Part shown: one piece after another, positions 7,559 to 31,655 of the stretch
How the letters are laid out: the number at the start of each line of letters is the position of its first letter
How positions within the stretch are numbered: the stretch's first letter is position 1
Origin: Roseobacter fucihabitans
GTDB taxonomy: Bacteria > Pseudomonadota > Alphaproteobacteria > Rhodobacterales > Rhodobacteraceae
Direction: 5' to 3'
Length of the DNA stretch: 64,000 bases
Assembly (NCBI RefSeq): GCF_014337925.2
Contig: NZ_CP143423.1
Coordinates: 1 to 64,000, forward strand
Program-made: the position numbers and the translations under genes
Notes under the pieces: generated by a model
What the model saw: only the letters and a program-made list of their open reading frames with translations
Database searches by the model: none
What the model was told of the DNA's origin: nothing

Positions 7559-7829
7559 TGCCCTGATCCCCAAGTCTCATTCGGCTTTGCGCGGAGTCCT
7601 TTGGGTTAGATCTTTGGCGTTAGGCGGCCATTTTGTCCATCGCCTTTCTGTGCGAGAATTCCATCGGGGTCAGGTTGCCCAAGCCTGAATGTGGTCTTTG
7701 CCAGTTGTAATCCTCCTGCCATTCTTCGAGCGTTTTGCGAGCATCGCCTAAAGCACCAAACAGCGTTTCGTTGAGGCATTCATCCACTGCCCGGCAGTGC
7801 ATGTTTACATGCACGAGAGGGGCGCAGCT
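7559..7829 (-). mobile_element. IS3-family 3'-end fragment
   Basis: This 271-bp stretch is nearly identical to the left part (plus-strand coordinates) of the fuller IS3 copy at 15175-16476. It starts at the same terminal repeat (TGCCCTGATCCCC) and encodes the end of the integrase-type OrfB (DECLNETLF…QEDYNWQRPHSGLGNLTP; stop at 7620). At 7830 it is cut off by an IS6-family end. A 37-bp palindromic insertion (7786-7822) splits the reading frame exactly where the second copy is split, so the insertion predates the duplication of this IS. Confidence 0.85.
7786..7822 (-). repeat. Miniature palindromic insertion 1 (37 bp) in IS3 orfB
   Basis: On the minus strand it reads CCCCTCTCG, hairpin TGCATG-TAAA-CATGCA, then CTGCCGGGCAGT. 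Removing it rejoins CTGCG with GGATG and restores the transposase sequence KLRDECLNE. It shifts the frame by +1. Confidence 0.85.
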
Positions 7830-8018
7830 GGTTGTGTCGCAAACTTTGTCGTGAGGCGAGATGGGGCCTCGCTAGGATACAATTATCCAGCGAGCTCGGC
7901 AAACTGTTCGAAGCCGGACAACCCTGGTCGGTCGAATTGTCCTTTGCGGATCATGTGGGCGACTTCGATGCCCGCCAGAGTGGACGCGGCTGAATTGAAC
8001 GATTTGAAGGTCCGCATT
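7830..8018 (-). mobile_element. IS6-family end fragment
   Basis: This stretch is almost identical to the first 189 bp of the complete IS6-family element at 28383-29210. It begins with the same terminal repeat (GGTTGTGTCGCAAAC) and encodes the last residues of the transposase (…GQFDRPGLSGFEQFAELAG, stop at 7883). It ends abruptly at 8018, where an IS1182 terminus begins. It is a truncated relic with no function of its own. Confidence 0.85.
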
Positions 8019-8662
8019 GGCTGATTCTGTGGAAAAACAACGTGTTGCGAGCGCAGGAAGTGGTGATCTAAATGGAGCGCGAGCGCCTTTCTTATCAGGC
8101 TTTTTGCATTTGCTGCGGTGCAGGAAAGATCTTGGCGAGTTTGCGGAGGTTTTGGGCGGTGGCGGCGAGCAGGAATTCGTCATTTGCGCCGCATGGGCCA
8201 CGTAATCGGGGACGTCCCAGCCCGAGGATGCGTTTGAGATGCGCGAAGAGCATCTCAACTTTCTTGCGCAGCCGCATTGAGATTGCGTATTGCTTGGTCT
8301 TGGCAATGTCGCGGGCGACCTGACGGGCGTCTTCATGTTCTTCGCGGGTAATTTTTCGCGCATCAGCATTCGGGCAGCATTGCATTTCTGACAGACAGGC
8401 CTGACACGTCTGTTTAAGGGCCTTATACTTGGCGACGCCTTTGCCGGTTGGCCCACGATTTGGGTCAGAATAGTTGCGCCGGAATTGCTTGAGCGGCTCG
8501 CCTTCCGGGCAGATGTATTGGTTATTCTCCGCATCCCATTCAAAGTCCGCGCAAGACCATGTGCCATCCGTGCGGCTCGCTTTATCCATAACCGGAATGT
8601 GCGGTTCGATCTTGCGATCAACCAACCACCCGAGCATCGGGCCGGAACCGTAAGCTGTGTCC

Positions 8663-8702
8663 ATTGCCCGGCAGTTGATTGCAAAGCAATCAATGAGAGG
8701 GG
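8663..8702 (-). repeat. Miniature palindromic insertion 2 (40 bp) in IS1182 transposase
   Basis: On the minus strand it reads CCCCTCTCA, stem TTGATTGC-TTT-GCAATCAA, then CTGCCGGGCAAT. Removing it rejoins ATTATCGC with GGACACAGC and restores the protein IIADTAYG. Same orientation as the transposase. Confidence 0.85.
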
Positions 8703-9334
8703 GCGATAATCCATTCGGGATGCAGATCGAACGTGTCTTTGACCCGATCCAACATTGAGCGCACAGACCCGACTTCTGCTTGCCGGATTGATCGTCTGGC
8801 CTCCACATCGACGATCACGGCATGATCCGTGTCGATCAGGTAATTGGTGGAATAACTGAAGAACGCAGGGCCTTTACGGGCTGCCGTCCATTGGCTTGCA
8901 GGATCAGAATGGGACGTGAACTTGGGTTCAACCTCAGATGCTGCGCCAAAAGCTGCGTTATCCAAGACATCAAGATACTCCTTCACGGCACGCGGCGCAT
9001 CGTTTGGATCGATGGCATTATGGTCCCAATCTTCCTTCGGCGTCGCGTTTTGTTTGTTCGCATCTGCCTCGATCAAACTGGCGTCTGCCGCAAGGCGCTG
9101 GCCACTCACCAAGCCATCCGCGATGCACCGAGCTACGGTCTTCTCGAACAGGTGTCGCAACAATGCACTCTCCCGGAAACGCCCATGCCGGTTCTTGGAG
9201 AACGTCGAGTGGTTCGGCACCGGATCAGATAGATCGAGGCGGCAAAACCAACGATACGCCAGTTTCAAATGCACCTCTTCACAAAGACGGCGCTCCGAGC
9301 GGATGCCAGAACAATAGCCCACGAGCAGCATGCG

Positions 9335-9371
9335 CCCTCTCATGCATGTAAACATGCACTGCCGGGTAATA
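9335..9371 (+). repeat. Miniature palindromic insertion 3 (37 bp) in IS1182 transposase
   Basis: On the plus strand it reads CCCTCTCA, hairpin TGCATG-TAAA-CATGCA, then CTGCCGGGTAATA. It is opposite in orientation to the transposase. Removing it rejoins CATGCG with GATCAG and restores PELLIRMLLVGY. Confidence 0.8.
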
Positions 9372-10179
9372 GATCAGCAGTTCTGGGTCGATGGACGGGC
9401 GGCCAGTGTGGCTATAAAAGTCCGCTAGGTATTGGCGGATGTCGCTTAGATCAACGAACCTATCAATTGACCGCAGCAGGTGATCTTGGGGCACATGATC
9501 GTCAATCGAGAACTCGTAAAACAGCGCGCCTTGTGCTTCTTGCTTTGGTCCCAGCATCGAAATCACCCCCGTTGCTAAGGAAAATTGAATCAGCGAATAG
9601 CCACCCGATCAAGCAAGAGTTTTTCAACAGAATCGGCTCAGACCGTATCTGAAGGCTCTGGTCAGATCACTCTTGCCCGGAATGCACAGAAGCTGCTGCT
9701 CGGACCAGGCAAAGAAGGCCACAATCTTTGGCTGGCTCAGCTTTTGACGCGCGGCCATGCGGACGTCGGCTGGCTGGCCGTTGGTGTCGCGCTCGATGTC
9801 GTGGAGTTTGCCGATCCTGTCGAGGGCCTCGTGGGCGATATCGGACTTGGTCGAGGTCCGAAAATCGTGGAAATCGCGCCGCAGGCAGGGCCAGCAGGCC
9901 GCCTCCCGCAAACGCGGCACACCACCCGGTTCAGGCGCGTAAAGCTTGGCATAGCCTTTGTAGCCGTCGGCTTGGAGGATGCTGCGGGCATCTGCCAGAT
10001 GGGTCAGGACATGCTCTTCCTTCCAGTCTGGCGCAAACCGATAGACAGCGCCGGGCGGTGCGCCCCCCGCCCAAGGACGTTGGTCCTGCACACAGGCCCG
10101 GATCCGGCCTTGCTTGACACCTTTGCCAGGTCCTTTGTCGCGCCTTGAACGATCCGGCACCCGGATCGGCGTGTCATCC

Positions 10180-10220
10180 ACTGGCTGGCAGGGCATTGCG
10201 CAGCAATCTGCCGAGAGGGG
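10180..10220 (-). repeat. Miniature palindromic insertion 4 (41 bp) in IS66 tnpC
   Basis: On the minus strand it reads CCCCTCTC, an imperfect stem around ATTGC-TGC-GCAAT, then a diverged end CTGCCAGCCAGT. Removing it rejoins CTGCACGC with GGATGACAC and restores LLHADDTPIRV. Confidence 0.75.
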
Positions 10221-10299
10221 GCGTGCAGCAGATCGCTGCCCATGATGTGCGCCTCGATCCGTTCAATAATGGGCGACAGTGTTTTCATGGCACGGCCAC

Positions 10300-10370
10300 C
10301 CTGGGCTGCGCCCGTTCACACCTCAGACTGTCCCCCGGGACAGCCCGTAGCTTCGCGAACCGGTGCTCAC
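10300..10370. repeat. Distinct ~70-bp palindromic insertion in IS66 tnpC
   Basis: Between the tnpC codons for TTLVGW and GRAMKTLSPIIERIEAH lie about 70 foreign bases. They contain the inverted repeat GACTGTCC/GGACAGCC around CCCGG and a second small stem GGGC-GCA-GCCC. The two junctions share GGGTG on the transposase strand, compatible with a 5-bp target duplication. The ends do not match the CCCCTCTC family. Confidence 0.5.
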
Positions 10371-11049
10371 CCAGCCGACCAGCGTGGTTTCGGGAATGTC
10401 GCCCCCCATACGCGCAAAGATCTCATGCTGGCGATATAACGGAAGGTGATCGTCGAACTTCGACACCCGCTGAGCGACGGGCGATGCCTGCATCGCCAAG
10501 AGGGGCACATGCGCCAGCAGGTCTGGCCCTGCCATGCTGCCCGGGATCGGACGGCCTGGCGCGGGCTCCTGCACCATCTTTTCGCAACGACGGCAGGATT
10601 TCCTGATCCGGACGATCTGCACAACCTTCATCCGTGCGGCGATCATGTCGAGAAGTTCGCTGACATCCTCGCCCACGACGCGCAGATCGCCACCACAGTC
10701 GGGGCAGCACGTGCCCGGATCAAGCTCACGGCGTTCTCGCAGGGTCACCTTCGACACACGCGGGCAGCGGCGCAAAACGGGCGCGCAGGGCTCATCAGCG
10801 GCCGGTGCGTCCTGACCTTCGTCGATCATCGCGTCATCGTCTTCGGCCACGGCGACCAGCAGGTCTTCGAGCGCCGGTTCCAGCTGCTTGATCTTCTCTG
10901 AGGATTTGCCAAAAGCCAGTTTCTGGAGTTTGGCGATCCGCAGCCGAAGGGCCTGAACCGGTTGATCGTGGACCCGCAAGGTCGCTGTGATCCTGGCGTT
11001 CTCTGCCTGCAATTCCGCGATCATCGCCTTCAAAACAGCGGGATCATCC

Positions 11050-11094
11050 GTTTGCCCGGCAGGGCATTGCGCGAAGCCAATATCCCGAGAGGGG
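11050..11094 (-). repeat. Miniature palindromic insertion 5 (45 bp, frame-preserving) in IS66 tnpC
   Basis: On the minus strand it starts CCCCTCTCGGGATATTGGC and ends CTGCCGGGCAAAC. Removing it rejoins AACCTCTC with GGATGATCCC. The 45-bp length keeps the frame, adding 15 residues (PSRDIGFAQCPAGQT) near the TnpC N-terminus. Confidence 0.8.
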
Positions 11095-11189
11095 GAGAGG
11101 TTTTCAGCAGGTTTCGACAGGCGTCTGATTACCAGAAAGCAGGCCAAAGCACCATATAAATAACGCAAATACAGACGCAAAATCACCCC

Positions 11190-11616
11190 ACACGCGCAGG
11201 CGGAGCCCCCCCAATCCAGACGCCGCCAGTCGATCGAGCATCGCGAGCTGCGCTGACGTCATCCGCACAGCCCCGTCTTGGGCGCTTGGCCACGGGAAAC
11301 GGCAACGTTCCAGCACCTTGTAACAGAGACAAAAGCCCTGGCCATCCCAATACAGCAGCTTGATCCGATCCCCACGCCGCCCCCGGAACGCAAACACGGC
11401 ACCACTGGCAGGCTTCTGCCGCCACGCGTAAATTTGTTGTCGCCTTATCTCATGGCGCTGCGCCACCTGTGTAACGCTCGCCCCACCAACCCCAACCGAC
11501 ATGACAATCTCGAGCTTGTGATCACCATGCCAGAAGCGTCGTCGCTCAGCCCCAATAAGTTCACCACAAATCACAAATCCCGCATAAAAGACGTCGCTAA
11601 TGACGTCTTTAAACAC
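11190..11616 (-). pseudogene. IS66 tnpA'-'tnpB fusion remnant
   Basis: The 5' part encodes a TnpA-type helix-turn-helix region (GAERRRFWHGDHKLEIVMSV … RRQQIYAWRQK). It runs directly into the C-terminal half of the TnpB/ORF2 family (FAFRGRRGDRIKLLYWDGQGF … WPSAQDGAVRMTSAQLAML). The end of tnpA and the start of tnpB are therefore deleted. The tnpB reading frame is then lost after AML, where a few bases of the usual EGIDWRR codons are missing. No function is expected. Confidence 0.75.
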
Positions 11617-11640
11617 ATCTCTCAGATCATCGCGTCGTTA

Positions 11641-11885
11641 TCAGGCAGGCCGTGCCAATCGAGCGGTTGCCAACTTCACGTTGACGCTCTTACTCTTGAG
11701 CGCTGCGCTTTTCTCCAGAACGTTTGGGACATTAAAGCGGAGTTTTGTTGGATTTTGCGCAATGGTTTTTGTGGCGTCGCAAGCGACGCCACCGGTCTCG
11801 ACCATCGGCGCAACGATTATCATTGAAGACGTACAACTGGCCGGATCTTAACTGAAGTGCAAGAAACATTCAGTACTTCCTACGC
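11641..11885. other. Non-coding stretch between IS66 relic and chemoreceptor pair
   Basis: No convincing gene. Short open frames occur on both strands (for example a 60-codon minus-strand frame at 11641-11823), but none has recognisable similarity or a good ribosome site. It probably holds the promoter of the following two genes and unplaced IS66 terminal sequence. Confidence 0.5.
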
Positions 11886-12221
11886 ATGTTTAGATCTGCT
11901 TTTTGGATTCTCAATGCAATGTTGTTGGCGCTGGCGATTGGGCCAGTATCCCTTGTTGCGTCGCAGTCGGGTCTTCCAGACGAAGCCGGTATCTACCTCG
12001 TTTTTGAATTCGGATCATCTTCAGGTCTAACGAGAGACATATTGTTCTCTGGAGCTCAGGAAATAGGACCGATCCGCCCTCCGATGTCACGGATAATTTT
12101 TGCATCTCAGACAACACATGATCATCTCCACGCCGCTGGCTATACAATGATGCCCGCCAGTGCACTGGCTGCGCTTTGCGGCATTGAAATCCAAAAAACA
12201 CATCAACTTCCGAGGACTTAG
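11886..12221 (+). CDS. Small hypothetical membrane or secreted protein upstream of chemoreceptor
   Basis: A 111-residue protein of unknown function. It has an N-terminal hydrophobic segment (about 5-27) that could be a signal peptide or membrane anchor, then a polar region with [14 protein letters not shown]. Its stop lies only 5 bp before the start of the chemoreceptor gene, so the two are probably co-transcribed and translationally coupled. A role in chemotaxis or sensing is suggested by context alone. The codon use is less GC-biased than the housekeeping genes, as for its neighbour, which would fit acquired DNA. Confidence 0.6.
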
Positions 12222-12226
12222 TTATC

Positions 12227-14089
12227 ATGCTTGCAACCGTAGTGTCTTCACCCGTCCGGATGGTGTTTGTTATCGCCACCGTGCTAACACCATGTGCGAT
12301 GTTCGCCGCATTCCTTATTGGTGGGAGCGTACTGTCAACCGCATTAATATCTCTGAGTTTCCTCGGTTTAGGATTAATGATGGGGCGCAGCCAACCTAAG
12401 TTGCTACCTGTCGGCGCAGCTGTCGCATTAATTGGCCAAGCCATTGCATTGAACAATGCATTTCAAGGGCATCCTTGGCAGATCGATACTCACATGCTGT
12501 ACTTTGCCCTGCTTGCAGTGTTGGTAAGCTTGCGCAGTGTCCCAGCCGTCTTGACTGCCGCTGGCATTATCGCAGTCCATCATGTTTCTCTATCGTTTCT
12601 GATGCCTTCCTTAATCTATCCTTCAGGTGGGTTTACTGAAAATATTGGACGTACCACGCTTCATGCCGTGATCGTACTTATGGAGACTGCGGCGCTTGTT
12701 CTAACGGTAGTTCAGTTGCAACGCCTCAATCAACAGATGCAAGTCAAAGCAGGTGAGTTGGAGGAGAGCTTGAAGCTATCTGACCAAGCACGTCATCAAG
12801 CTCAGAAATCCCAAAAAGAAGCTGAAGCAGCCAAGAACGATGCGGAAAAAGCTGCGACGCGTGAAGTCGAAATGGCCAAAGAAAAAGAAAGCGCCGATCG
12901 TAAGGCGACCAAGGCCCGGGAGGCGATGATGATCGACCTTGGTAATTCCTTCGGTACGGTTGTCGAAGCGGCTGTCGCAGGTGAGTTTTCCAAGCGGGTG
13001 GACGCGAATTTCTCCGATCAAACCCTCAACGAGCTCGCAGAAAATATCAACCAACTGCTGGGGGCCGTGGATCAAGGTCTTTCCCAAACCGGTCAAGCGC
13101 TGGAGCGTGTTGCCGGTGGAGATCTGACGAAGCCTATGGACGGTGACTTTCATGGAGCCTTTGGTCATCTACAGAGAAACGTCAACAATATGATGGACGG
13201 CCTCAAGTCTCTCATCGTTGAAATTACAGGCAGCGGTACTACTCTCGCGTCATCATCGGCTGAGTTGCGCGATACGTCCGACGGGCTGTCAAAACAAGCC
13301 GAACAAAATGCAGCTTCTCTGGAAGAGACATCCGCAGCTCTCGAAGAACTTTCTGCAAGTATCAAGCGGGTCAGCGGGAGTGTCGCGGACGCAAGCAAGA
13401 ACGCGCAGACAGCCCGAGATACGGCACAGTCCAGCGAGAAAGTGGCATCTGACGCGGCGGAATCAATGGAGAGTATCGCCGACGCTTCCAAAGAGATCAC
13501 GCGAGTAGTTGGTGTCATTGACGACATTGCGTTTCAGATCAACTTGCTTGCCTTGAACGCTGGCGTTGAAGCGGCGCGCGCGGGAGAGGCGGGCCGTGGT
13601 TTCTCAGTCGTCGCCTCAGAAGTTCGACTGCTCGCTCAAAGAGCAGCCGAAGCCTCAAAAGAAATCGCGGCTGTAATCGTCAAAAGTGATACTGCGGTTT
13701 CTCAGGGTGTTGAAAAAGTTTCCAACGCGAAATCTTCTCTCGAGACGATTGCTGAGAGCGTCATCGGTATTTCCAAAGGGGTTGATGAAATATCTACCGC
13801 AATATCGGAACAAGTGCATGGCATCGGTGAAATCACGACGACCGTGAGCCAAATTGATCAAAATACGCAGAGACAGGCAGCTTCATTTGAAGAAGTCACA
13901 GCTGCAAGTGCCATACTAGCAAGCGAAGCCGACAATATGAAACAAACAACAGCACGCTTCCGAACAGGTCAGGAGACCAAAATAGCCGAAATGAACAAAC
14001 CAGCCGCACCCCTCACAATACAACAGCCGAGAAGTGCCGCCGTAAGCGCCGGCGGACGTGCAAGCCAAGACGGTTGGAATGAATTTTGA
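12227..14089 (+). CDS. Methyl-accepting chemotaxis protein (six-helix N-terminal membrane domain)
   Basis: A chemoreceptor that controls the CheA kinase. The 620-residue protein has an N-terminal block of about six membrane helices (1-165) in place of a periplasmic ligand domain, then a charged coiled coil (about 170-230), a HAMP-like region ([16 protein letters not shown] … GGDLTKPM) and the conserved signalling hairpin tip [20 protein letters not shown] near 430-449. It ends DGWNEF, close to the C-terminal pentapeptide that tethers methylation enzymes. ATG 12227 has a GAGGA ribosome site and follows the small gene by 5 bp. The ligand cannot be told; membrane-embedded sensing is likely. Confidence 0.9.
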
Positions 14090-14290
14090 TTGCTATGAGT
14101 GAGTGGCAAATGGGAACAAGCGTTGTTACGATATCTGTTTTGGCGCGGAAATTTAGCTTAAAAAATTGATCGATACAGTCTTCGCAGTAATGAGAGCCTG
14201 TTGAATGTTACAGAGAACTGCCGCGGTATTGTTACCGAGATTTGGGCCGCTCAGTCATGATGTTTTGTTCGCCATGACGTGGTCAATAGT
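14090..14290. other. Non-coding stretch after chemoreceptor
   Basis: No gene is supported. The sequence is AT-richer than its surroundings, and at about 14291 it runs into an IS5-type terminus. A GAGCCTGTTGAATG motif near 14191 faintly resembles the IS1182 terminus, but there is no matching element beside it. Confidence 0.4.
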
Positions 14291-14552
14291 GACCTTGTTG
14301 CAGGGATCGTATCACGACTGCTATCGAGGCGGTTTGTTCTTTTCAGGATGCTGTAAATGCCGCACAAGTTTAACGCCAGTCGATGAGGCAAGATCCCGAA
14401 GCAACGGCATCGGGTGACCAACTGGGCCGATTATAACGAAGGCCTGCGGCGGCGCGGTGATCTGGCTGTCTGGATCAGCGAAGACGCACTCGCCCTGTGG
14501 TCGGTGCCACGCCGAACGACACGTGGCGGACAGCCGCACTACTCTGATCTGA
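14291..14552 (+). pseudogene. IS5-family transposase, N-terminal fragment
   Basis: From ATG at about 14357 the plus strand reads MPHKFNASR, stop, GKIPKQRHRVTNWADYNEGL and onward to VPRRTTRGGQPHYSDL. This is the conserved start of an IS5-family transposase with an in-frame TGA where an arginine codon is expected. The probable IS end (CCTTGTTGCAGGGATCG) lies near 14293. The gene is cut off at about 14552, where IS1182 sequence begins. Confidence 0.75.
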
Positions 14553-14704
14553 GTTGTGTGGCTGTCCGGAGTTGATGCGCCAAAGGCCTTGTCGTCAAAA
14601 GCGTCGAGATATTCCCTGACTGCTCGCGGTGCATCGTCTGGATTGATTGCCGATACATCCTATTCCGACTGTGCAGCGGAGTTCATTCTATCGACATCTG
14701 CTTC

Positions 14705-14745
14705 CCCCTCTCGGGATATTGCTGCGCAATACCCTGCCGGGCAGC
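14705..14745 (+). repeat. Miniature palindromic insertion 6 (41 bp) in IS1182 fragment
   Basis: On the plus strand it reads CCCCTCTC, stem GGGATATTGC-TGC-GCAATACCC, then TGCCGGGCAGC. Opposite in orientation to the transposase. Comparison with the first IS1182 copy shows an uninterrupted CTCGATCAAACTGG there, so the insertion lies exactly between CTTC and GATCAAACTGG. Confidence 0.9.
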
Positions 14746-15029
14746 GATCAAACTGGCATCAACTGCAAAGCCATGGCCACCAACAAGACCTTCAGAAATG
14801 CAGCGCGTAACAGTGGCTTCAAAAACTGACCGAAGCAGGTCGCCATCCCGGAATTTACCGTGACGGTATTTTGAGAAGGTACTGTGATCCGGCACTTTGT
14901 TGTTCAAATCGAGACGACAAAACCACCGATATGCCAGGTTCAGATGAACCTCATCACACAGACGCGTTCAGATCGGATGCCTAAAACGTAACCGACAACC
15001 AGCATCCGTACGATCAGTTCCGGGTCAAT

Positions 15030-15065
15030 CCCCCCTCATGCATTTTCAATGCACAGCCAGGCAAT
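15030..15065 (+). repeat. Miniature palindromic insertion 7 (36 bp) in IS1182 fragment
   Basis: On the plus strand it reads CCCCCCTCA, stem TGCATT-TTC-AATGCA, then CAGCCAGGCAAT. The uninterrupted first copy (GGGTCGATGGACGGGCGG) aligns across it as GGGTCAAT joined to GGAAGTGCG, so the insertion is exact. Confidence 0.85.
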
Positions 15066-15235
15066 GGAAGTGCGTCCCAGATGGCTGTAGTGCGGCACAA
15101 GTTGATGACGGACCGTCCCGACGTCCAGAAACTGATCAACCTCACGCAATATGTGATTGGCAGTACATGTGCCTTGCCCTGTGCCCCAAGTCTCATTCGG
15201 CTTTGCGCGGAGTCCTTTGGGTTAGATCTTTGGCG

Positions 15236-16112
15236 CTAGGCGGCCATTTTGTCCATCGCCTTTCTGTGCGAGAATTCCATCGGGGTCAGGTTGCCCGAGC
15301 CTGAATGTGGTCTTTGCCAGTTGTAATCCTCCTGCCATTCTTCGAGCGTTTTGCGAGCATCGCCTAAAGCACCAAACAGCGTTTCGTTGAGGCATTCATC
15401 CACTGCCCGGCAGTGCATGTTTACATGCACGAGAGGGGCGCAGCTTGCCGTTGAAGCTTTCAATGAAACCGTTCTGCCGGGGCCTTCCGGGCGCGATGTA
15501 GTGCCAGTCAATGCCGGTATCCTGAACCCATTTGAGAGGATCGCCATGCTGGTGAACTCGGTACCGTTGTCCGATACAATCGTCGTTGGCATGCCGCGTT
15601 CAGTAATGATCTGATCCAGTTCACGCGCGACCGTTGACCAGACAGCGACGTGTCGGCCACCAGCACCAAGTTCTCGCGGCTGAAGCCATCGACAACTGCC
15701 AAAATGCGAAACCGACGTCCATCTGTCAGCGCGTCAGACACGAAATCCAACGACCAATGCTGGTTCGGTCCGTTGGGCAATGCCATTGGCTTCCTCGTTC
15801 CCAACGCGCGCTTCCTGCCACCCCTGCGACACACCTGAAGCTTCTCTCTTCACGATAGATGCGCCGCACTTTCTTGTGGTTCACCTCAAAGCCCTCCCGC
15901 GCAATCATCACGTGGATGCGGCGGCACCCAAACCGACGTCGTTCACGAGAAACGCGTTTGATTGCATCTCTTAGCTCAGCATCATCGCCTCGGCGCGACA
16001 GATATCGCACCGAGGATCGATCAACTTGTAAAACATCACACGCCCGCCGTTGACTGACTTGATGGGCCGCCATCAAATGCACCACAGCTTGCCGCTTCAG
16101 GGCGGGCGTCAC
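15236..16112 (-). pseudogene. IS3 OrfB (integrase-like) pseudogene
   Basis: OrfB pieces run in order but in different frames: QAVVHLMAAHQVSQRRACDV … VNHKKVRRIYREE, then CRRGGRKRALGTRKPM … WSLDFVSDALTDGRRFRIL, then [17 protein letters not shown], and finally [22 protein letters not shown]. The DDE motif aspartates ([14 protein letters not shown]) are visible. There are frameshifts near 15830, near 15640 and within about 15520-15545, and the 37-bp insertion at 15402-15438. Confidence 0.85.
15402..15438 (-). repeat. Miniature palindromic insertion 8 (37 bp) in IS3 orfB
   Basis: Identical in sequence and position to the insertion at 7786-7822 in the other IS3 copy, hence shared by descent. Same orientation as the transposase. 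Confidence 0.9.
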
Positions 16113-16413
16113 CGTTTTTTTGAATTGATGTCTCGCAACATGGCGTTGTCCAACATTTGTTCAGCCAACAGCTTCTTCAGCTTGCTGTTCTCATCCTCAA
16201 GCGCACCCAGTCGCTTCGCGTCGGACGGCTCCATGCCGCCATACTTCGATTTGTATTTGTAGAACGTTGCTGAGCTGATCCCCCTCCCGGCAGATTGCTT
16301 CGCAATCGCCTGCCGGGCAATGCATGCCGCCGACATACGTCCGCAGTCTTCTCACCAGCTTCCTGTTCTTTGATCATTGCTATGATTTGTTCGTCCGTGA
16401 AACGTGCCTTCAT
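16109..16413 (-). pseudogene. IS3 OrfA (helix-turn-helix) pseudogene
   Basis: The gene starts MKARFTDEQIIAMIKEQEAGEKTADVCRRH and, after the 41-bp insertion at 16281-16321, resumes ISSATFYKYKSKYGGMEPSDAKRL to the leucine-zipper end LAEQMLDNAMLRDINSKKR. Apart from the insertion it looks intact, so the palindromic element is the only visible lesion in orfA. Confidence 0.85.
16281..16321 (+). repeat. Miniature palindromic insertion 9 (41 bp) in IS3 orfA
   Basis: On the plus strand it reads CCCCTCCCGGCA, stem GATTGC-TTC-GCAATC, then GCCTGCCGGGCAAT. Opposite in orientation to orfA. Removing it rejoins GCTGATC with GCATGCCG and restores CRRHAISSATFYKYK. Confidence 0.9.
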
Positions 16414-16577
16414 TTGTCCGTCCTGCTGGTGGGCAGACTCTACACAAATTTGGAGGAGTTTAAGGGGCGCAGGTCAGTGTGGATGCGACTAGTCCCTACA
16501 GGTCGGGTGCCGTCATCACAGCACATCTTCATGCTATATTTTGGCTTAATCCAATATACGGGGTGTTTTATGCTGTT

Positions 16578-16603: not shown

Positions 16604-16715
16604 GACGATGTTTGGTGAGATCTGTCGCCGTGCCCCGACTGACGCATGCAAAATGCCACTGTTGAGAGGAGAGCTGTGAACGGCGGTCGCTGATCATACG
16701 TCTAGGGAGGACAAC

Positions 16716-24054: not shown

Positions 24055-24072
24055 CCAAGAAGGAGACCTATT

Positions 24073-24642
24073 TTGTCAATCACTACAGAAAGCTACGCGT
24101 CCCAGCCTGACGGGATGATCCCCAATAGCCGCTTTCCATTGCTCGTGCATCGTAATGCTGTCCCCGGTGGCGGCGCCAATGCCATCAAAGAGCGTTTTCG
24201 GTCAAATGGCTGGTCCAATAACTGGGACTATCCGGGTGTGTATGAATATGCGCATTTTCATTCCACGACCCATGAATGTCTGGGCTGTGCGCAAGGCTGG
24301 ATGGCATTCAATTTATCCGTTGGCGACGGTGGCTGGACCAAGGTCCGTATTGAGGCAGGCGATGTTATTGTGATGCCCGCAGGTGTCAGCCATGAAATGA
24401 CCAGCCAATCCGAAGATATCCATATGTGTGGCGGCTATCCTGGCGGCCGTGATTGGGACGATATCCAAGAAGAGTTCCTGACGGACGAGGACTACAAACG
24501 TGCTTGCAAACGGATCATGATGTTACCGATCCCCGACAAAGATCCTGCCACAGGGCAGGCTATGCCTGAATGGCACGCAGCCTCTTCCTCGGTCGATGGT
24601 GGATGGAACGACTGGCGGCATGGGCTCGATAAACGCAACTAA
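24073..24642 (+). CDS. Cupin-fold protein
   Basis: A 189-residue single-domain cupin. The likely metal ligands are His61 and His63 (AHFHSTTHE), Glu68 and His107 (MPAGVSHEM), matching the two cupin motifs. Such proteins act as isomerases, oxygenases or ligand sensors; the reaction is not identifiable. The start is TTG at 24073, supported by AAGGAGA 8 bp upstream; no ATG lies nearby. It is the last gene of the operon, directly followed by a strong terminator. Confidence 0.75.
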   Translation: MSITTESYASQPDGMIPNSRFPLLVHRNAVPGGGANAIKERFRSNGWSNNWDYPGVYEYAHFHSTTHECLGCAQGWMAFNLSVGDGGWTKVRIEAGDVIVMPAGVSHEMTSQSEDIHMCGGYPGGRDWDDIQEEFLTDEDYKRACKRIMMLPIPDKDPATGQAMPEWHAASSSVDGGWNDWRHGLDKRN

Positions 24643-24660
24643 GTCCAAGCGCCTAAAACC

Positions 24661-24690
24661 AAAAAAGGCTCTGATTTCAGAGCCCTTTTT
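24661..24690. terminator. Bidirectional intrinsic terminator
   Basis: GGCTCTGA (24667-24674) pairs with TCAGAGCC (24677-24684), flanked by six A's on the left and CTTTTT on the right. It therefore works for the plus-strand operon and for the convergent minus-strand dehydrogenase pseudogene. Confidence 0.9.
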
Positions 24691-24692
24691 CC

Positions 24693-25630
24693 TTATTCTG
24701 CGGTGTCTCGGTATGGTGCGCCGGTGGCATAAGGTACATTCACACCGCCATATCGCCTTACCCGCACATTGCATTGCTCCGCATGGCCTGCAAACCCTTC
24801 AAGCATGCATAACCGCGATCCATATTCCCCGATCATCGTGGTAACCGCATCGGTTGTGATCTTTTAATAGCCATGGGTTTTCAGAAACTTACCGACCCAA
24901 AGACCACCCGTATGGTGCCCCGCCTTATTGGTTGGTAACGTGTGATTGGTCCCGATCACCTTATCGCCATTGGCCACATTGGTGCGCGCACCCAAAAACA
25001 GCGCGCCATAGCAGGTCATATTCTCTAAAAACCAGTCATCGCGGTCGGTCATAACCTGCACATGTTCTGATGCAATTTCATCGGCGACGGCCAGCATTTC
25101 ATCATAGCTGTCAACAACGATCAGCTCACCATACTCTCCCCAAGATATCGCCACCGTATCAGCCGTCGGCAAAATTGTCAGCAGACGGGTAATTTCATCC
25201 ATCGTGTCGCGAGCAAGCTTTTCGGCTGCGGTCAACAAAATACAAGGGCTGTTGTACCCATGTTCGGCCTGTCCCAACAGGTCAGTGGCGCAAAGCTCTG
25301 CGTCTGCCCCCATTTCGTCAGCGATCACCATCGCCTTTGTCGGGCCAGCAAAAAGGCCGATGCCCACGTGACCAAAAAGCTGTCGCTTAGCTTCGGCGAC
25401 AAAGGCATTTCCGGGGCCAACAAGCATATGCACCGGCTCGATCGTTTCAGTGCCGATAGCTATCGCACCAATGCCTTGAATGCCGCCCAAGACATAAATC
25501 TCATTCGCGCCGCCCAGATGCATCGCTGCAATCATCGCCGGATTTGGCTTGCCTTGAAACGGCGGCGTACATGCAACGATCCGTGGCACACCCGCAACCT
25601 AAGCAGTCGCAACAGACATATTCGCTTCCC
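24693..25630 (-). pseudogene. Histidinol-dehydrogenase-like gene, truncated with nonsense codons
   Basis: The minus strand encodes about the last 310 residues of a HisD-family NAD-dependent dehydrogenase: [35 protein letters not shown], the active-site ASEHVQVM and [12 protein letters not shown]. After an in-frame TAA (24864-24866) it continues [18 protein letters not shown] to the normal end. A second stop, TAG, lies at 25599-25601. The 5' part is missing because a Tn3-type terminus begins at 25631. The relatives include sulfopropanediol and other alcohol dehydrogenases, so true histidine synthesis is unlikely. It is a decayed neighbour of the ABC operon. Confidence 0.85.
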
Positions 25631-25668
25631 GGGGTCTGCTCCGGCTGAGTGTTAAATCCTACGCTAAG
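25631..25668. repeat. Tn3-family 38-bp terminal inverted repeat
   Basis: The sequence starts GGGGTCTGCTCC and ends TACGCTAAG, and is exactly 38 bp, the length and GGGG…TAAG pattern of Tn3-family ends. It cuts the dehydrogenase gene on one side and overlaps the last codons of the resolvase gene on the other. The partner repeat was not found in the window. Confidence 0.85.
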
Positions 25669-26275
25669 GATTGAGCACGCGTTTTCCGTAGTCTTGAAGA
25701 TTTCCATTTGGGTTGACGTAGCGGTAAAGCGTGACGGGCTTCACGGCTAATTCCTTGCAGAGCTCAAAAACTGACGTGTCACGGTTTGCCATTGCGGCTT
25801 GCGCCATGCGCACTTGGGCTTTTGATGACGCGAATTTCCATCCGCCTTTTCTGCCCCGCGCTCGGGCGGCAGCTAATCCAGCCATTGTGCGTTCGCGGAT
25901 CAATTCACTTTCAAATTCAGCTAGAGTAGCGAAGATGCCGAAGGACAACCGGCCAGCGGCTGTTGTTGTGTAGATTTGCGGCCCTTGGCCGGTCAGCACT
26001 TTGAGACCGATACCGCGATCTGACAGTGTGGTAACGGTCTTGACCAAGTGGTGAAGGCTGCGGCCAAGGCGGTCCAGTCTCCAGATAACCAGCACGTCGC
26101 CGTTCCGAAGAGCCTTGAGGCAGGTTTCGAGTCCGGGCCGGTCATCTTTCTTTCCCGACGCCTGATCCGAATAGATCTGGTCATCCGGCGCGTCGGCGGC
26201 GAGCAGGGCATCGTGTTGCAGGTCGAGCGTCTGGCTGCCGTCTGCTTTGGAGACGCGGGCATAGCCGATCAGCAT
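25664..26275 (-). CDS. tnpR: Serine recombinase (Tn3-type resolvase/invertase)
   Basis: A 203-residue serine recombinase that would resolve transposon cointegrates. The N-terminal catalytic domain has YARVS with the nucleophile Ser9 and the conserved LVIWRLDRLGRSLHHL. The long helix with AEFESELIRERTMAGLAAARARG leads to a C-terminal helix-turn-helix (VFELCKELAVKPVTLYRYV). It appears complete and in frame, unlike the transposase beside it. ATG 26275 opens just beside a dyad that may be part of the res site. Confidence 0.9.
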   Translation of the reverse strand: MLIGYARVSKADGSQTLDLQHDALLAADAPDDQIYSDQASGKKDDRPGLETCLKALRNGDVLVIWRLDRLGRSLHHLVKTVTTLSDRGIGLKVLTGQGPQIYTTTAAGRLSFGIFATLAEFESELIRERTMAGLAAARARGRKGGWKFASSKAQVRMAQAAMANRDTSVFELCKELAVKPVTLYRYVNPNGNLQDYGKRVLNP

Positions 26276-26310
26276 GTTTCACAAACGAACGTTTGAGATA
26301 CTTGATCCGG
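26270..26310. promoter_or_regulatory. Possible res subsite of the Tn3-family resolvase
   Basis: CAAACG-AACGTTTG at about 26281-26294 is a dyad directly upstream of tnpR, the usual place for resolvase binding in this family. The full three-subsite res structure could not be confirmed by eye. Confidence 0.4.
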
Positions 26311-26408
26311 TTGGTGGCATTCGGGCACTGAGCATGCTCCTTAACCCATATCACAATCAAAAATGGACAATCCCCTATTAGAAAGCAAAAGAAACATGGC
26401 GACACTAC

Positions 26409-28384
26409 CGCCATGGGTAAGGCAGATTGTGCCTTTATCACCATGGCCAATGCCCGGTTGATCGCATCACTTCCAATATGCCAGCGTGACAGGCGCGAGA
26501 GCTGGTAATAATCATGTGTGTTTGTAGCTTCAGCCATTTTGCTGAGTCCCAGATTAAGACCTTCTGCGAGCAGGACATTCAATAGCCCAATTCTGCCCTT
26601 GCAGGGTGCGCCCGTGCGCAGATGGGTGAACGCATCGGTAAAACCCGTGGCCTCGTCCACTTCCAGCAGCATGTCTGTAATCCGTACATCCGGCAGACGT
26701 CGGTAGAGATCAAGGACAAGCTCATCTGTTTCAGCAGAAACGGCGGCGGTCAGGCGGTCAATTTTCAGGATGCCATTCTCAATGGAACCACCCGGACTGG
26801 CACCGGCTTTGGCGGCGGCTAGGCGTTTCAGGCCCTGCGCCATACGCGCTTTGCAGTCATTCAGCCATTACTCAGGATCGAACAGAACCGTTAAACAGGG
26901 CGTGGCCTTCCCTGTTTCAATCGGCACCAAAGCCTGCTTCAGATCGCCGTAGCGCCGGGAGTGTGATAGCCAGATATCGCCGGACCGGAAGGCATCACGC
27001 AGGTGGGACATTACTGCAACCTCCCATAGCCGGTGGCCATCAGATTCTTGTACATTGAGATGATGATGCCATTTTGAGTTGCGTTGCAAGAAGGTCCTGG
27101 GCTTTTCTGCTACATCTTTGTTTTTCCTGATGATACTGGCGGCGGCCATCAACGGTTCCGCAACTGTTGCCGCCTTGATGTCCAGCGCTCGCAGCATTCG
27201 CAGTGCATAGCGACGGAACCGGTGATAGCCCTGTCCTACATGGGTCAAAGGCTCGGCTGACATGGTATCGCCCAGCTGCGCCGCCGTTGCCACAAGGCCT
27301 TCCAGCTTGTGCCATCCACAGGCGGTTGCAACAGCCGGATCAAGCGGCGCATCATCGTCTTTTGCTTCGAGCAATGCCGCGCCCAGACGTTTAAAAGAGC
27401 GCAGAGTGTCCTGCAGTGATGTCTTTGCGCCATTGATCTGTGCATCGCATTGTTTCTTCGTATCCGGCCAGATCTTGCCAACAATCCGGTCATGGTTTTC
27501 CACAATTGCGTCGGCAATGTCAGCGCGCCACTCCACGGTGCAAACTGCAAGAATGGCCAGCCGTCGATCGCTGGAAATATCCCGTAAACCATCTGTAAAG
27601 TAGCGCTCGCCCTGGCGGCGAAGGCGGGTCACCTAGTGCGGTGGGACGCCGTCCAACACATCAAGGGATAGCTCAATGCCTTGCAAAAACTCCAGCCGAT
27701 CCAGCAATCGGCTGATGTCGGCCGAGTTCTTACCAACCTCAAATTGGCGCAGCCAGATCAACCGGCTTACCCGACCATCTGCGCTTTCAGCCAGCAGAGT
27801 ATCAAGCTGGGGTTCTATTGGGCCACTCAGGCGATCGACGATACGTGTTTCAATCCGTCGTTCAGCGGCGACAAGGGCGTCAGCGCATAGGCGTTCTATG
27901 ACCGATATTCCAGGCAGCATGATCTGCGCGCCTTGACATTGCTTTACCAAGCGCCGGGCCAAATCCTTGTTTGAGCCCGCCACCTCAGCTTCCCTTACAA
28001 GCCAAGCCTTCAGATCGCCTGCGCCCCGCCCGGAAAACATTTTGTACCCGTAGATATCGCGCAGGGCAGCGAGATGCTCATGACGCGTTTCTTCGCGGGC
28101 AGCATACCCCATTAGATCATCGGGTTTCAGGCCCAGCTGTGCGGCAAGTAACCGTGATATCTCCTGAGGGATTACTTCACCTGGCACAAGCAAGCGCCCG
28201 GGGAAACGCAACGCGCAAAGCTGCAAAGCTGCAAAGTAAAACCGAAACGGTAGTGTGAACGGCGTCTCGTGTGAATGTATTCAAGGTCATCATCCGCCAA
28301 TGTGTAGTGGCGCAGCAATGAGGGTTCGTCCGTAGGCAGGTCAAAAATAGCAGAGCGCTGGCGCTTCGTTAGAATGGTGCGAGG
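26409..28384 (-). pseudogene. tnpA: Tn3-family transposase, broken and truncated
   Basis: The minus strand follows a Tn3-type TnpA from RTILTKRQRSAIFDLPTDEP to MVIKAQSALPMA. There are four lesions: an IS6 insertion at about the third codon (28383); an 8-bp tandem duplication of GCAAAGCT (28215-28230) that shifts the frame; an in-frame TAG at 27633-27635 (VPPH-stop-VTRLRRQ); and an in-frame TAA at 26868-26870 (FDPE-stop-WL). The C-terminal third with the catalytic DDE residues is absent, replaced by the tnpR upstream region. Confidence 0.88.
28215..28230. repeat. 8-bp tandem duplication inside tnpA
   Basis: GCAAAGCT occurs twice in tandem, followed by GCAAAG. One copy is needed for the conserved FTLQLCALRFPG reading; the second adds 8 bp and shifts the frame. 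This is a replication-slippage footprint. Confidence 0.8.
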
Positions 28385-29210
28385 TTGTGTCGCAAACTTT
28401 GTCGTGAGGCGAGATGGGGCCTCGCTAGGATACAATTATCCAGCGAGCTCGGCAAACTGTTCGAAGCCGGACAACCCTGGTCGGTCGAATTGTCCTTTGC
28501 GGATCATGTGGGCGACTTCGATGCCCGCCAGAGTGGACGCGGCTGAATTGAACGATTTGAAGGTCTGCATAGGGCGGGTGATCTTTTTTATGAAACGGTG
28601 GTCCTGTTCGATAATATTATTGAGATATTTCACCTGCAGAATCTCGATCAGCCAACACCAGTTATGCATCACCAGCAGGCAATTCATGTTGAACAGACCG
28701 ACCGCGTTTGATCCGCTCTTGTCGATAAAAACCTTGTCCGGCCAGCCGTTACTGGCGATCACCTTGGCGAAGAATGCGGTTGCTGCCGCCTCATCACGTC
28801 GCTCGGACAGCATGAAATCAAGGGTATTGCCGTATTTGTCTATCGCTCGATAGAGATATGTCCACTGGCCTTTGACCTTGATATAGGTTTCGTCCATCCG
28901 CCAAGATCGACCGGTCGACGCCTTCTGACAACGCGCCTCACCGGCAACGGCGACAGAATATTTCTCGACCCATCGATTAAGCGTTGCATGATCAACATCG
29001 ACGCCGCACTCGTTCATGATTTCTTCGAGATCCCGATACGATACCGCAAACCGAACGTAGAAATAGACCGCGTATAGGATCACCGATTTCGGAAAATGCG
29101 CGCCTTTGAAACTGATCAATCGTTTAAACCTTGAATGAGATGTCGAAAGGCTGCCCGATGAACGTCACTGCCGAGAAGTGCAACAGGGCTCCAAAAGTTT
29201 GCGACACTAC
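28383..29210 (-). mobile_element. Complete IS6-family insertion sequence
   Basis: An element of about 828 bp with inverted ends GGTTGTGTCGCAAACTTT (left) and AAAGTTTGCGACACTAC (right), carrying a single intact transposase. This is the IS26-like architecture. It is inserted into the Tn3-family tnpA. The region beyond its right end is unrelated to tnpA, and the transposon's outer terminus is missing, as after the adjacent deletions typical of this family. Confidence 0.88.
28436..29119 (-). CDS. IS6-family transposase
   Basis: A 227-residue DDE transposase that performs replicative transposition. The three catalytic acids are visible: Asp in WRMDETYIKVKGQW, Asp in KVFIDKSGSN, and Glu in NNIIEQDHRFIKK. 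Its length and ends (FKGAHFPKSVILYAVYFY … FEQFAELAG) match the family. It appears intact and may be the only active transposase in the region. A truncated copy lies at 7883-8018. Confidence 0.92.
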   Translation of the reverse strand: MISFKGAHFPKSVILYAVYFYVRFAVSYRDLEEIMNECGVDVDHATLNRWVEKYSVAVAGEARCQKASTGRSWRMDETYIKVKGQWTYLYRAIDKYGNTLDFMLSERRDEAAATAFFAKVIASNGWPDKVFIDKSGSNAVGLFNMNCLLVMHNWCWLIEILQVKYLNNIIEQDHRFIKKITRPMQTFKSFNSAASTLAGIEVAHMIRKGQFDRPGLSGFEQFAELAG

Positions 29211-29342
29211 CCGGGCAGTGCCCATGGCGTGTTTTGCTGTTTACTTTACGAGCCAAGCAAACTTTCTCTTGACGCTCAAGTTGTATTCGTTCGAGCATTG
29301 GACCTCATAACGTCAAAAAGTGAAGACGAATTGGAGGATACT

Positions 29343-30656
29343 ATGAAAAAGCAGCTTTTATCAGCTGTCGTGGCACTCAGCGTGATGACGACAGCATCCG
29401 CTGCATGGTCAGACGGACACCAAGGAGCGATGGACGTACCCAAAATCACTTCATCGGTTGTCTTGGAGGGGCGGGAAGCTCCTTGGGACATGGCTTTCTT
29501 GCCGGACGGTACAATGTTCTTCACTGAAAAATGCGGCGGTCTTTCTGTAAGAACGAAAGATGGCACCGTAAATGCTCTGTACGGAATGAAGGATTCCGAG
29601 GGCTTTTCAGATGCCGGTAGTGATCTGTTCTGCGAAGGGCAAGCCGGTATGCTTGGCGTGGTAGCAGATAGGCATTTCGCGAAAAATCGTACCCTGTATG
29701 TCTATTCGAGTTCATCCAAATATCACGGCGATGGCTGCAAGACCAATTTCGAGAGGTGTGACGGCAACATCGTAATGAGGTTCAAGGTCAGCGAAGACCT
29801 GAAAAGCGTGTCTGACAGGACCGATATTGTTACAGATATTCAATATAAGTCGTTTGACTCCGATCAGCCCTTTGGCGGACCGGGGGCCCATAACGGCGGT
29901 AGAATCCGCATTGGACCCGGCGGCTATCTCTGGGTCGCTGGTGGTGATCGTCACAGAGGGATTTGTCCGCAGGACGGAACACTCCTTTGTGGCAAAGTTC
30001 TTAGGATCGATGCGGATGGAAATGCTCACCCGGACAACAATCCCCCCGAAGGTTTTGACAAGCGCATCTACACTTACGGGCACAGAAACGTTCAAGGGAT
30101 AGATTTCCGCCCAAGCGACGGAAAGGCTTTCACGGCAGAGCATGGCCCGTGGCATAACGACGAAATCACAGCACTTGTAAACGGTGGTAACGCCGGATGG
30201 GATCCCGCTCAGAACACAGGTGGCAGAGGTGAGTGCCCGGATCAGTACTGTGGTTATGAGCCGAACCAGCTGGACGCTGTTGACCCAGCGATACGTGCTG
30301 CGTACACGCCAATGAGTGACACGCGTTTTGATGACTTGATGCCAGCCACTTGGAACAACAATGGGTACTCTCAAGGCACTGGTTCCGCCGCCTTTCTCAG
30401 AGGCGAGAATTGGGGCATCTACGAGGGCCGCTTGGCAGTCGGCATTATGGGTATCGCTTTTGGGGATACGCCAGCAGGCTCAAGAATTGACCTGATCAGC
30501 ATTACGCCTGACGGCTTGGGTATTAATGGAATCACTCGGATGCCTCTCGGGTTTTCGGCGAGATTCCGTGGTCTCGTGATGGGGCCGGACAATGCGTTAT
30601 ACGTCGCCACTGACGAGGGCGAAATCTACAAAGTAACAGCAGAAAGCATGAAGTAG
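29343..30656 (+). CDS. Secreted PQQ-dependent aldose/sorbosone dehydrogenase-like protein
   Basis: A 437-residue precursor with a signal peptide (1-23, ending TASAAWSDG). It resembles the beta-propeller soluble aldose sugar dehydrogenases that use PQQ and calcium in the periplasm: APWDMAFLPDGTMFFTEK, GQAGMLGVV, YTYGHRNVQGIDFRP, EHGPWHNDEIT and YVATDEGEIYKV. Four to six cysteines are a little unusual. ATG 29343 is chosen for its TTGGAGGA ribosome site; longer upstream frames run into the IS6 end. The gene lies 133 bp from the IS6 terminus, so its native upstream neighbour may be lost. Confidence 0.85.
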   Translation: MKKQLLSAVVALSVMTTASAAWSDGHQGAMDVPKITSSVVLEGREAPWDMAFLPDGTMFFTEKCGGLSVRTKDGTVNALYGMKDSEGFSDAGSDLFCEGQAGMLGVVADRHFAKNRTLYVYSSSSKYHGDGCKTNFERCDGNIVMRFKVSEDLKSVSDRTDIVTDIQYKSFDSDQPFGGPGAHNGGRIRIGPGGYLWVAGGDRHRGICPQDGTLLCGKVLRIDADGNAHPDNNPPEGFDKRIYTYGHRNVQGIDFRPSDGKAFTAEHGPWHNDEITALVNGGNAGWDPAQNTGGRGECPDQYCGYEPNQLDAVDPAIRAAYTPMSDTRFDDLMPATWNNNGYSQGTGSAAFLRGENWGIYEGRLAVGIMGIAFGDTPAGSRIDLISITPDGLGINGITRMPLGFSARFRGLVMGPDNALYVATDEGEIYKVTAESMK

Positions 30657-30672
30657 TTTTTCAAAAGAGACT

Positions 30673-30703
30673 CCGCGCTATGGAAGTGGCGCGGGTGTTT
30701 TGT
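30673..30703. terminator. Stem-loop between convergent genes
   Basis: CCGCGC (30673-30678) pairs with GCGCGG (30689-30694), followed by GTGTTTTG. It lies between two convergent genes, 17 bp after the dehydrogenase stop, and may serve both. Confidence 0.55.
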
Positions 30704-30745
30704 TGAATGTTTTGGACGAAATGACGCCGTTAGAATACGCCCAAA

Positions 30746-31135
30746 TCAATTGCCCGCGAACAGGGTGTCGGGCAACTCGTAGCGCTGACCGTCAACATGA
30801 ATCACGTGGATACCGTACTTGAGGCTCCAATCGGCATTGGTGCCGACACCGGACATTGTTACGCTTGCCTTCAGGAATTTACTACCTTCGAATAAGAGTC
30901 CCCGCTCGAAGCCATTCGCGAAAACCACCGTCACCGTGGTTTTCCCTTTCTCATCCCGTTTGATGCGGTAGCTGCATTGACCAAGCGACTCGCCACGTTC
31001 CTGGGCGCACGCAATTGATTTCGGCGTGTTGTTGTCAGCCGAAGACATCGGTGATTTATCTTGTTGTTCGGCGGACGCCTCCACCGTGCCAAGCAAAACG
31101 ACAGCACATATACAACTCAGGATTGGCGTCTTCAT
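30746..31135 (-). CDS. Small secreted hypothetical protein
   Basis: A 129-residue precursor with a clear signal peptide (1-22, VEASA cleavage). The mature part has two cysteines (IACAQ and LGQCSY) and a beta-rich tail (TTVTVVFANGFERGLLF … YELPDTLF). Family not recognised. It is convergent with the PQQ-type dehydrogenase gene. Two cysteines suggest one disulfide in the periplasm. No function is proposed. Confidence 0.65.
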   Translation of the reverse strand: MKTPILSCICAVVLLGTVEASAEQQDKSPMSSADNNTPKSIACAQERGESLGQCSYRIKRDEKGKTTVTVVFANGFERGLLFEGSKFLKASVTMSGVGTNADWSLKYGIHVIHVDGQRYELPDTLFAGN

Positions 31136-31309
31136 TTCAACTTGTCCCCGTAACTCACTTTTGAAGTTCAGGTTTCGTGCAATGCGTCACCGTCCCGGTC
31201 AATCATAGCAACTCGCCAAACTACTCTTCCCTGATCCTTGGTTCGTCGGGGAGCAGGATGCGCTGTTTGATACTCTTTGCACAAGGAACATTCAAATTTG
31301 ATCAGTAAG

Positions 31310-31655
31310 CGGTGCGGCGAAACCAGCTTCCTGAAGGCACCCCAAGGGGCAATCTTTCCACCCACAAAAGCCCCCGCGCAGCGCAGGCGTTAAGAAAGCG
31401 CGGCTGCTGGTTCCTGTTCTTGCCCGCCCTACTCCCGCGACCTCAACCCCACCTCTCGCGACATTGCTGCGCAATACCCTGCCGGGCAATGATCGAGATG
31501 GCTTTCTCAAAGCTCAAAGCCCATCTGAGACGGATCGGACCAAAAACGTTTGATACAAACTTCCAGGCCCTCGGCGACATTTGTGATCTGTTTGATCCAA
31601 GCGAATGCTGGAACCTCCTCAAAGCTGCCGGATATGCCTCAGATTAAATGCAAAA
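31310..31655 (+). pseudogene. IS630-family transposase, C-terminal fragment
   Basis: The plus strand reads LSTHKSPRAAQALRKRGCWFLFL and then, in another frame, the conserved tail IEMAFSKLKAHLRRIGPKTF to LLKAAGYASD and stop. The catalytic region PYSPDLNPIE is disrupted by a one-base frameshift and by the 41-bp palindromic insertion at 31450-31490. The upstream two thirds of the gene are missing. Confidence 0.8.
31450..31490 (+). repeat. Miniature palindromic insertion 10 (41 bp) in IS630 fragment
   Basis: On the plus strand it reads CACCTCTCGCGAC, stem ATTGC-TGC-GCAAT, then ACCCTGCCGGGCAAT. Removing it rejoins CTCAACCC with GATCGAGATG and restores NPIEMAF. Same orientation as the transposase. 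Confidence 0.9.

Follow-up and report, generated by a model that had tools for sequence, protein, structure and literature searches.

Tiny hairpin elements found almost only in or next to transposase and recombinase genes in Roseobacter fucihabitans and its family

The first 64,000 nucleotides of the Roseobacter fucihabitans contig NZ_CP143423.1 (assembly GCF_014337925.2; hereafter the window) contain ten minute palindromic insertions, all of which interrupt transposase sequence of insertion sequences (IS). Here we report that these insertions represent a real, widespread and apparently undescribed family of minute hairpin elements with an extreme bias for transposase genes. The host genome harbours at least 218 element places; these reduce to about 80 different sites of insertion, whose flanking sequences form 32 groups. 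Our tentative preference is for a family of non-autonomous single-strand hairpin elements that were inserted long ago and that now spread as passengers of the IS that carry them.

All ten insertions listed by the initial annotation are present, with ends within 1 bp of those given once the net insertion has been defined, and their placement in transposase sequence of the IS3, IS1182, IS66 and IS630 families is confirmed. Read 5' to 3', each copy has a start near CCCTCTC, then a hairpin and then TGCCGGGCAATG. A covariance model (R1) was built from nine of the copies, the tenth being left out as a duplicate; searched against the 64-kb window at E ≤ 1 it returned exactly ten matches at the same ten places, in agreement with the earlier view that the window holds no further copies. 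An Rfam scan of the window at gathering scores gave no matches. The sites fall into IS3 (7785, 15401, 16282), IS1182 (8662, 9335), a diverged IS1182-like remnant (14706, 15031), IS66 (10179, 11050) and IS630 (31451). The elements and two of their carriers are:

7785..7821, minus strand: 37-bp element in an IS3 OrfB fragment, site LR^DECLNE
8662..8701, minus strand: 40-bp element in an IS1182 transposase, sense, site IIA^DTAYGS; empty site in another genus
9335..9371, plus strand: 37-bp element, antisense, in the same IS1182 transposase as 8662; empty site in the host's divergent copy and in other genera
10179..10219, minus strand: 41-bp element in an IS66 transposase, site LLHA^DDTPI
11050..11093, minus strand: 44-bp element near an IS66 transposase start
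14706..14746, plus strand: 41-bp element in a diverged IS1182-like remnant
15031..15066, plus strand: 36-bp element in the same IS1182-like remnant as 14706
15401..15437, minus strand: 37-bp element in IS3 OrfB, sequence and site identical to 7785..7821
16282..16322, plus strand: 41-bp element in IS3 OrfA, antisense; empty site in the host's divergent copy and in other genera
31451..31491, plus strand: 41-bp element in an IS630 remnant, site DLNP^IEMAF; homologues of the group annotated IS630
7997..9641, minus strand: IS1182-type carrier of 1645 bp with two elements; 6 genome copies at 99.8–100%, one partial
15175..16476, minus strand: carrier of IS3 type, two elements; copied in full or in part at several places

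Chance is excluded as the source of the hairpin elements, since the strict pattern CCCTCTCN{14,24}CTGCCGGGCA occurs at 87 places in the 4.85-Mb genome and its reversed control at none. Of 1451 candidates in the genome, R1 scored 150 and matched every one of them, and a renewed search of the matched places together with 20 random stretches and the window gave 227 rows, equivalent to 218 distinct places. The exact 34-base core of the element at 7785..7821 is found at nine places in the host genome, and the same element sequence occurs in up to four unrelated flank groups. A further pattern, TGCCGGGCARTG, used to look for an autonomous version, has 108 places against none for its reversed control; among the 100 of these that were listed, nine are new, five being further or broken copies in IS. 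The other four were rejected as chance occurrences without an element, in genes that by eye resemble sucD, glyS, glnE and a phage portal gene.

The elements are clean insertions and not ordinary IS sequence, because their flanks, when joined, match relatives that lack any interruption. Twenty-eight junctions were prepared as single queries and 25 of them run, scoring 40 of 120 candidates in the host genome and two candidates in each of the other genomes; 12 of the 25 were found uninterrupted over all or nearly all of their length in relatives at 85–95% identity, which answers the earlier concern that the copies might be ordinary parts of the IS. Three of these sites are empty in divergent copies within the host genome itself and further empty sites lie in other genera, including relatives for three of the six window sites among the junctions (8662, 9335, 16282). 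No empty copy above 93% identity was found among the 40 host-genome candidates scored. The net insertion runs from CCCTCTC to CAATG, measures 36–45 bp in nearly all cases (41 bp being the commonest length) and is found in either orientation.

The stem of the hairpin covaries. Across 79 distinct sequences of the 41-bp class, 94.2% of the cells of nine base pairs are paired, compared with 78.3% when the 3' arms are shuffled and 82.8% for the largest fraction in 1000 shuffles (which ignore relatedness), and seven of the nine pairs show changes on both sides; an alignment (A2) that had been fitted to R1 was left out of this test. In 77 of the 79, position 11 is an unpaired, bulged A. The target, compiled over 198 distinct sites in all genomes, reads WNNYC^GAYGV, with 168 of the 198 free of boundary ambiguity; on the reverse strand this places CATC directly 5' of the element and makes the bulged base a T. 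The consensus amounts to about 3.7 bits and ranks the true site at a median within the top 1.1% of positions in 600 bp, and no longer shared motif was found beyond it at the 198 sites. A structured target was considered and rejected (no fold signal, p = 0.52).

The bias for transposase genes was assessed by tblastn with a set of proteins drawn from the insertion groups themselves and supplemented by three recognised by eye (L073, L074 and L082), so these three foreign loci match by construction. In the host genome a transposase match lies within 500 bp of the element at 218 of 218 places, within 60 bp at 187, and encloses the element at 172. Pfam scans of 30 of the 32 flank groups matched transposase, IstB, integrase-core or recombinase models in 26; groups 12 and 24 matched only helix–turn–helix models and groups 0 and 30 none, and the two unscanned groups share their frame with a scanned one. 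Group 0 has about 47–50% identity to records annotated as IS630 family transposase, a longer copy of group 30 matches DDE_Tnp_1, and group 24 is taken as the start of IstA by its likeness to group 18. As a check on placement, the initial annotation had proposed a covariance-model search of the genome and its relatives; copies did not turn out to be spread in proportion to length. Twenty evenly spaced 20-kb stretches contain 13 elements at E ≤ 0.001, 13 of 13 in or beside IS genes. Transposase matches, which give a lower bound for IS, make up 2.3% of these 400 kb; of the 20 stretches and the window together, about 10% is neither IS nor part of a crude frame. Element placement is therefore far from proportional even within dispensable DNA, with the proviso that copies multiplied along with their IS are not independent.

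The bias extends to other genera, and the transposase and recombinase genes that hold or adjoin nearly all copies belong to about ten IS families. When the best-scoring new locus was taken from each of 27 genera, the element was enclosed by a transposase match, or at most 3 bp away from one, in 20; the other seven comprise a tyrosine recombinase, three IS5-like genes (one at 93 bp), an IS630-like gene, a weak match to rve that misses its cut-off, and a place about 140 bp after an IS110-like gene, so that matching, reading and Pfam together put 27 of 27 within or next to a gene for a transposase or recombinase. An earlier foreign set of 59 loci (52 distinct places, 90 elements) has tblastn matches within 60 bp for 57 of the 90 elements and none within 500 bp for 21. 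After reading and some Pfam scans, 48 of the 52 places count as IS, several of them judged by eye (e.g. L216, L217, L234, L237 and L241), one on a Pfam match below its cut-off (L230) and one between IS110-like and IS5-like genes but inside neither (L078). The remaining four lie away from any recognised transposase or recombinase gene: at a RelE-like toxin gene (L071, Pfam RelE), at a gene for a conjugative coupling protein (L221, Pfam TraG-D_C and T4SS-DNA_transf), at an unassigned place (L083, the same as L243) and in a gap between two genes read by eye as encoding ABC transporters (L087). Thus the initial proposal of a tiny element biased towards transposons stands, for the host genome and for other genera, whereas its 'all' was too strong for the family. 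The element at L087:1501-1544 is a good match (39.1 bits) with no transposase recognised nearby, and that at L083 is surrounded by a different GC-rich repeat, of which several similar-looking copies fall within 800 bp.

Matches were found in 22 of 35 genomes of the host's family, while 24 genomes of other families had none. A larger set from the host's family, 394 genomes that nearly all represent different genera, has a match at E ≤ 0.001 in at least 129. Both searches covered more than 40 genomes and ran with stricter filters, and the second scored 15 candidates per genome, so that its counts are lower bounds. The elements also occur on plasmids, 71 records matching one 44-base copy, of which 40 are from Pseudosulfitobacter, 10 from Leisingera, five from Sulfitobacter and two from Shinella (Rhizobiaceae). 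Thirteen plasmid loci, chosen by hand and not at random from listings of 71 and 46 records, all lie in transposase or recombinase sequence, nine having a match no more than 40 bp away and four being assigned by reading or from their annotation. On pOA307_63 of Octadecabacter antarcticus the element is found at two adjoining annotated transposase genes, the second of them IS66. Most element places listed in the plasmid table have no annotated gene; the table excludes pseudogenes. The plasmid of Shinella sp. WSC3-e (L289) has its copy in a Rhizobiaceae IS3, outside the main host family.

The relative age of the insertions can be read from the carriers, which occur as near-identical copies at many places with the same element pattern (six copies of the IS1182 type, several of the IS3 types). 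In pairwise site comparisons, which were counted from both sides and are not independent, elements are shared in 526 of 526 cases at ≥99% identity (same-place pairs removed; 538 of 538 and two false 'empty' cases before removal), in 40 of 40 at 97–99% and in 82 of 83 at 90–97%, whereas at 80–90% identity 62 are shared and 136 empty. Since near-identical copies share their elements and empty sites occur only in diverged ones, the insertions predate the last multiplication of these IS, and there is no sign that an element has recently entered or left a carrier. As the near-identical carriers all bear elements, the elements did not stop them from multiplying. The suggestion that copies are kept only where they silence transposases is not supported, the carriers being recently multiplied IS (99–100% copies with one element pattern); several carriers moreover have independent lesions, and some elements lie in a non-coding stretch after IS110-like genes. 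Placements of this last kind, about 135–250 bp after IS110-like transposase genes, were observed in different genomes (L080, L235, L241 and L266).

The state of the carriers themselves is uneven. The frame of the IS1182 carrier comprises 461 codons and is whole once its two elements are set aside; no near-identical match spans either site uninterrupted, and no clean copy was found in the genome. Codon-position tests of pairs from which the insertions had been removed gave mixed results: IS21, IS3, IS110 and some IS1182 pairs have strong three-base periodicity, but most of them have a single site in common and their divergence may be older than the insertion. Among IS630 carriers with two or three sites in common, periodicity is weak or absent and some gaps shift the frame. 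In one IS3 type every full copy is missing the end of OrfB, and a second IS3 type is frameshifted against its whole relative. On account of these truncations, frameshifts and weak periodicities, several carriers are probably transposase-dead and moved in trans. In IS630 carriers (e.g. L130, L142, L158, L144 and window 31451) same-site flanks are 0–3% diverged and the element 0–17%, the divergence of the element often exceeding that of the flanks, mostly in its 3' part, which is the opposite of other carriers.

The mechanism that we tentatively prefer starts from the form of the insertion. The elements insert cleanly between C and GAYG and would enter as a folded single strand through a trans-acting enzyme of HUH/Y1 type, as suggested by the lack of duplication, the single hairpin with its fixed bulge and the four-base target at one end. 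One trait of IS200/IS605 elements is present in that a short target lies 5' of one end without duplication (the reverse-strand CATC adjoining the element); the two subterminal hairpins of that group are absent, one hairpin only being found. Most of the present abundance would come from passage on IS copies, several of which would be transposase-dead and mobilised in trans, and not from continued hopping of the element. The restriction to transposases would then arise largely as insertions carried on IS are copied and pass between genomes and others stay single and vanish; passage on IS copies in our view explains most of what is seen. Several observations weigh against this account. The whole IS1182 frame in six copies and the strongly periodic pairs leave the death of all carriers unproved, the 36–40-bp classes form plain stems, and passenger spread alone would have to explain the very large per-base excess in IS over intergenic DNA. 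Of the 10 Y1 matches in the host genome, the six that were looked at lack element-like ends; one Y1 type carries the element itself, in three copies. By a rough hand count, homologous transposases are struck at the same codon in 12–13 pairs, against about five expected from the consensus.

These repeated strikes lend some plausibility to a second explanation, in which the insertion machinery recognises transposase genes or transposition intermediates, the element being either an obligate hyperparasite of IS or a device of the host against transposons. We consider this possible and rather less than probable. Different elements hit the same codon of homologous transposases at several positions (the IstB Walker B, the IS1182 DTAYGS motif, OrfB residue 16, OrfA residues 32 and 68), and the targeting explanation can point to all 218 host-genome places, all 27 best loci per genus and all 13 of the non-random plasmid loci. 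Where the element lies in sense, the target frequently translates into hydrophobic residues and then Asp, and this is why motifs such as LLHA^DDTP in IS66, IIA^DTAYGS in IS1182 and VIL^DELG in IstB, which we take to be catalytic Asp or Walker B motifs, recur. Targeting is set against a consensus of few bits with neither a longer motif nor a fold signal, a carrier spread that the elements did not stop, and the four foreign exceptions among 52. We know of no mechanism that recognises transposases as a class. The fuller claim, that a family-wide machinery specific for unrelated transposase and recombinase genes repeatedly strikes conserved motifs, as an obligate transposon parasite or a host-encoded anti-transposon system, appears doubtful. 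Precise homing is not claimed because the excess of shared sites rests on that hand count; no clear coupling between element and flank divergence was apparent by eye, and elements at the same site are not always equally long; those of equal length at one site are 0–0.17 different against a mean of 0.22 for random ones.

Two further explanations concern the fate and the identity of the elements. Interrupted transposases might still work through translational bypass, as with mitochondrial byp elements, or the element might be removed from RNA or DNA, and indeed taking out up to five elements restores long frames, no clean counterpart was found for the six near-identical IS1182 copies with two elements, and some element-sharing copies have strong codon periodicity. 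We nevertheless regard this as unlikely. Bypass and removal from RNA were rejected as a general account: both orientations occur within one gene, element lengths fall into all three frames, several carriers have other frameshifts or truncations, and at some sites clean relatives (86–91% over 80 bp) are closer than the element-bearing one (80% over 1 kb). Excision from DNA was likewise rejected, given near-identical copies without any empty site (0 of 526 comparisons at ≥99% identity). That the elements belong to a known family of miniature inverted-repeat transposable elements (MITEs) or repetitive extragenic palindromic (REP) sequences, as their small size, palindromic form and many copies might suggest, is very improbable. 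Joined flanks and the 198 sites reveal no target site duplication, the CCCTCTC and CAATG ends are not inverted repeats, the end profiles of 78 sites contain no GTAG or CGTC tag at the hairpin foot, neither the TA target nor the terminal repeats of a RUP-like MITE were found, the location is not mainly intergenic, no transposase flanked by such ends was found, and the window has no Rfam match.

By analogy, RUP of pneumococcus is the closest precedent. The parts of PMC2229807 that treat it describe RUP as present in more than six IS families, where it inactivates transposase genes (Oggioni and Claverys 1999, as cited there), with 9-bp terminal inverted repeats, target duplication, a TA target and IS630-Spn1 as its proposed mover. 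As far as that account goes, both are small and non-autonomous and reside inside IS transposase genes, and the question of regulation has been raised for RUP too; unlike RUP, the present elements have no such repeats and no duplication, insert at C^GAYG and measure 36–45 bp. Rickettsia palindromic elements, which the same source in part describes as 105–146 bp long and in frame within working host genes, are likewise palindromic inserts in genes, whereas here the frames are mostly broken and the targets are transposases. The hairpins of REP, TnpA-REP and IS200-IS605 systems measure 20–65 nt, some of them bulged, with a guide or target tetranucleotide adjoining the hairpin (in the relevant sections of PMC6006769, which also cover HUH/Y1 hairpins and tetranucleotides, and of PMC3733652), and the REP families covered in the latter have GTAG or CGTC tags and are mostly intergenic. 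In comparison with REP as covered there, our family has no tag, is not mainly intergenic and has no Y1 gene with such ends among the six host-genome matches looked at. The byp elements of yeast mitochondria are short mobile hairpins inside genes that are bypassed in one orientation; here both orientations are found within one gene. The absence of target duplication is a feature of the REP and IS200/IS605 type. We found no account of this hairpin family in the open-access literature, judged mostly from listings. The Octadecabacter genome paper (PMC3646047) reports many IS and pseudogenes, and in the portion of its text available the stems palindrom-, repeat- and miniature- do not occur.

Were targeting true, the family would represent a mobile element, or a defence, able to tell transposases as a class from other genes. 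If passage on dead, trans-moved IS is correct, the elements would offer a datable marker of the continuing spread of broken transposons between genomes, and could show whether the older RUP observation shares the same cause. On either reading, the elements interrupt transposase genes in as many as 129 genera within a major group of marine bacteria.

Hybrid or half elements were also encountered on the host chromosome, at 3777925-3777970 (L163), 2104109-2104150 (L136), 3822130 (L249) and 2020982 (L135), in which the left flank of one IS site is joined to the right flank of another or a single expected flank is present, as though different IS had recombined there, with the elements acting as short stretches of homology or as breakpoints. 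Within the window, a fragment at 31660-32010 that by eye resembles a tyrosine recombinase adjoins the IS630 remnant.

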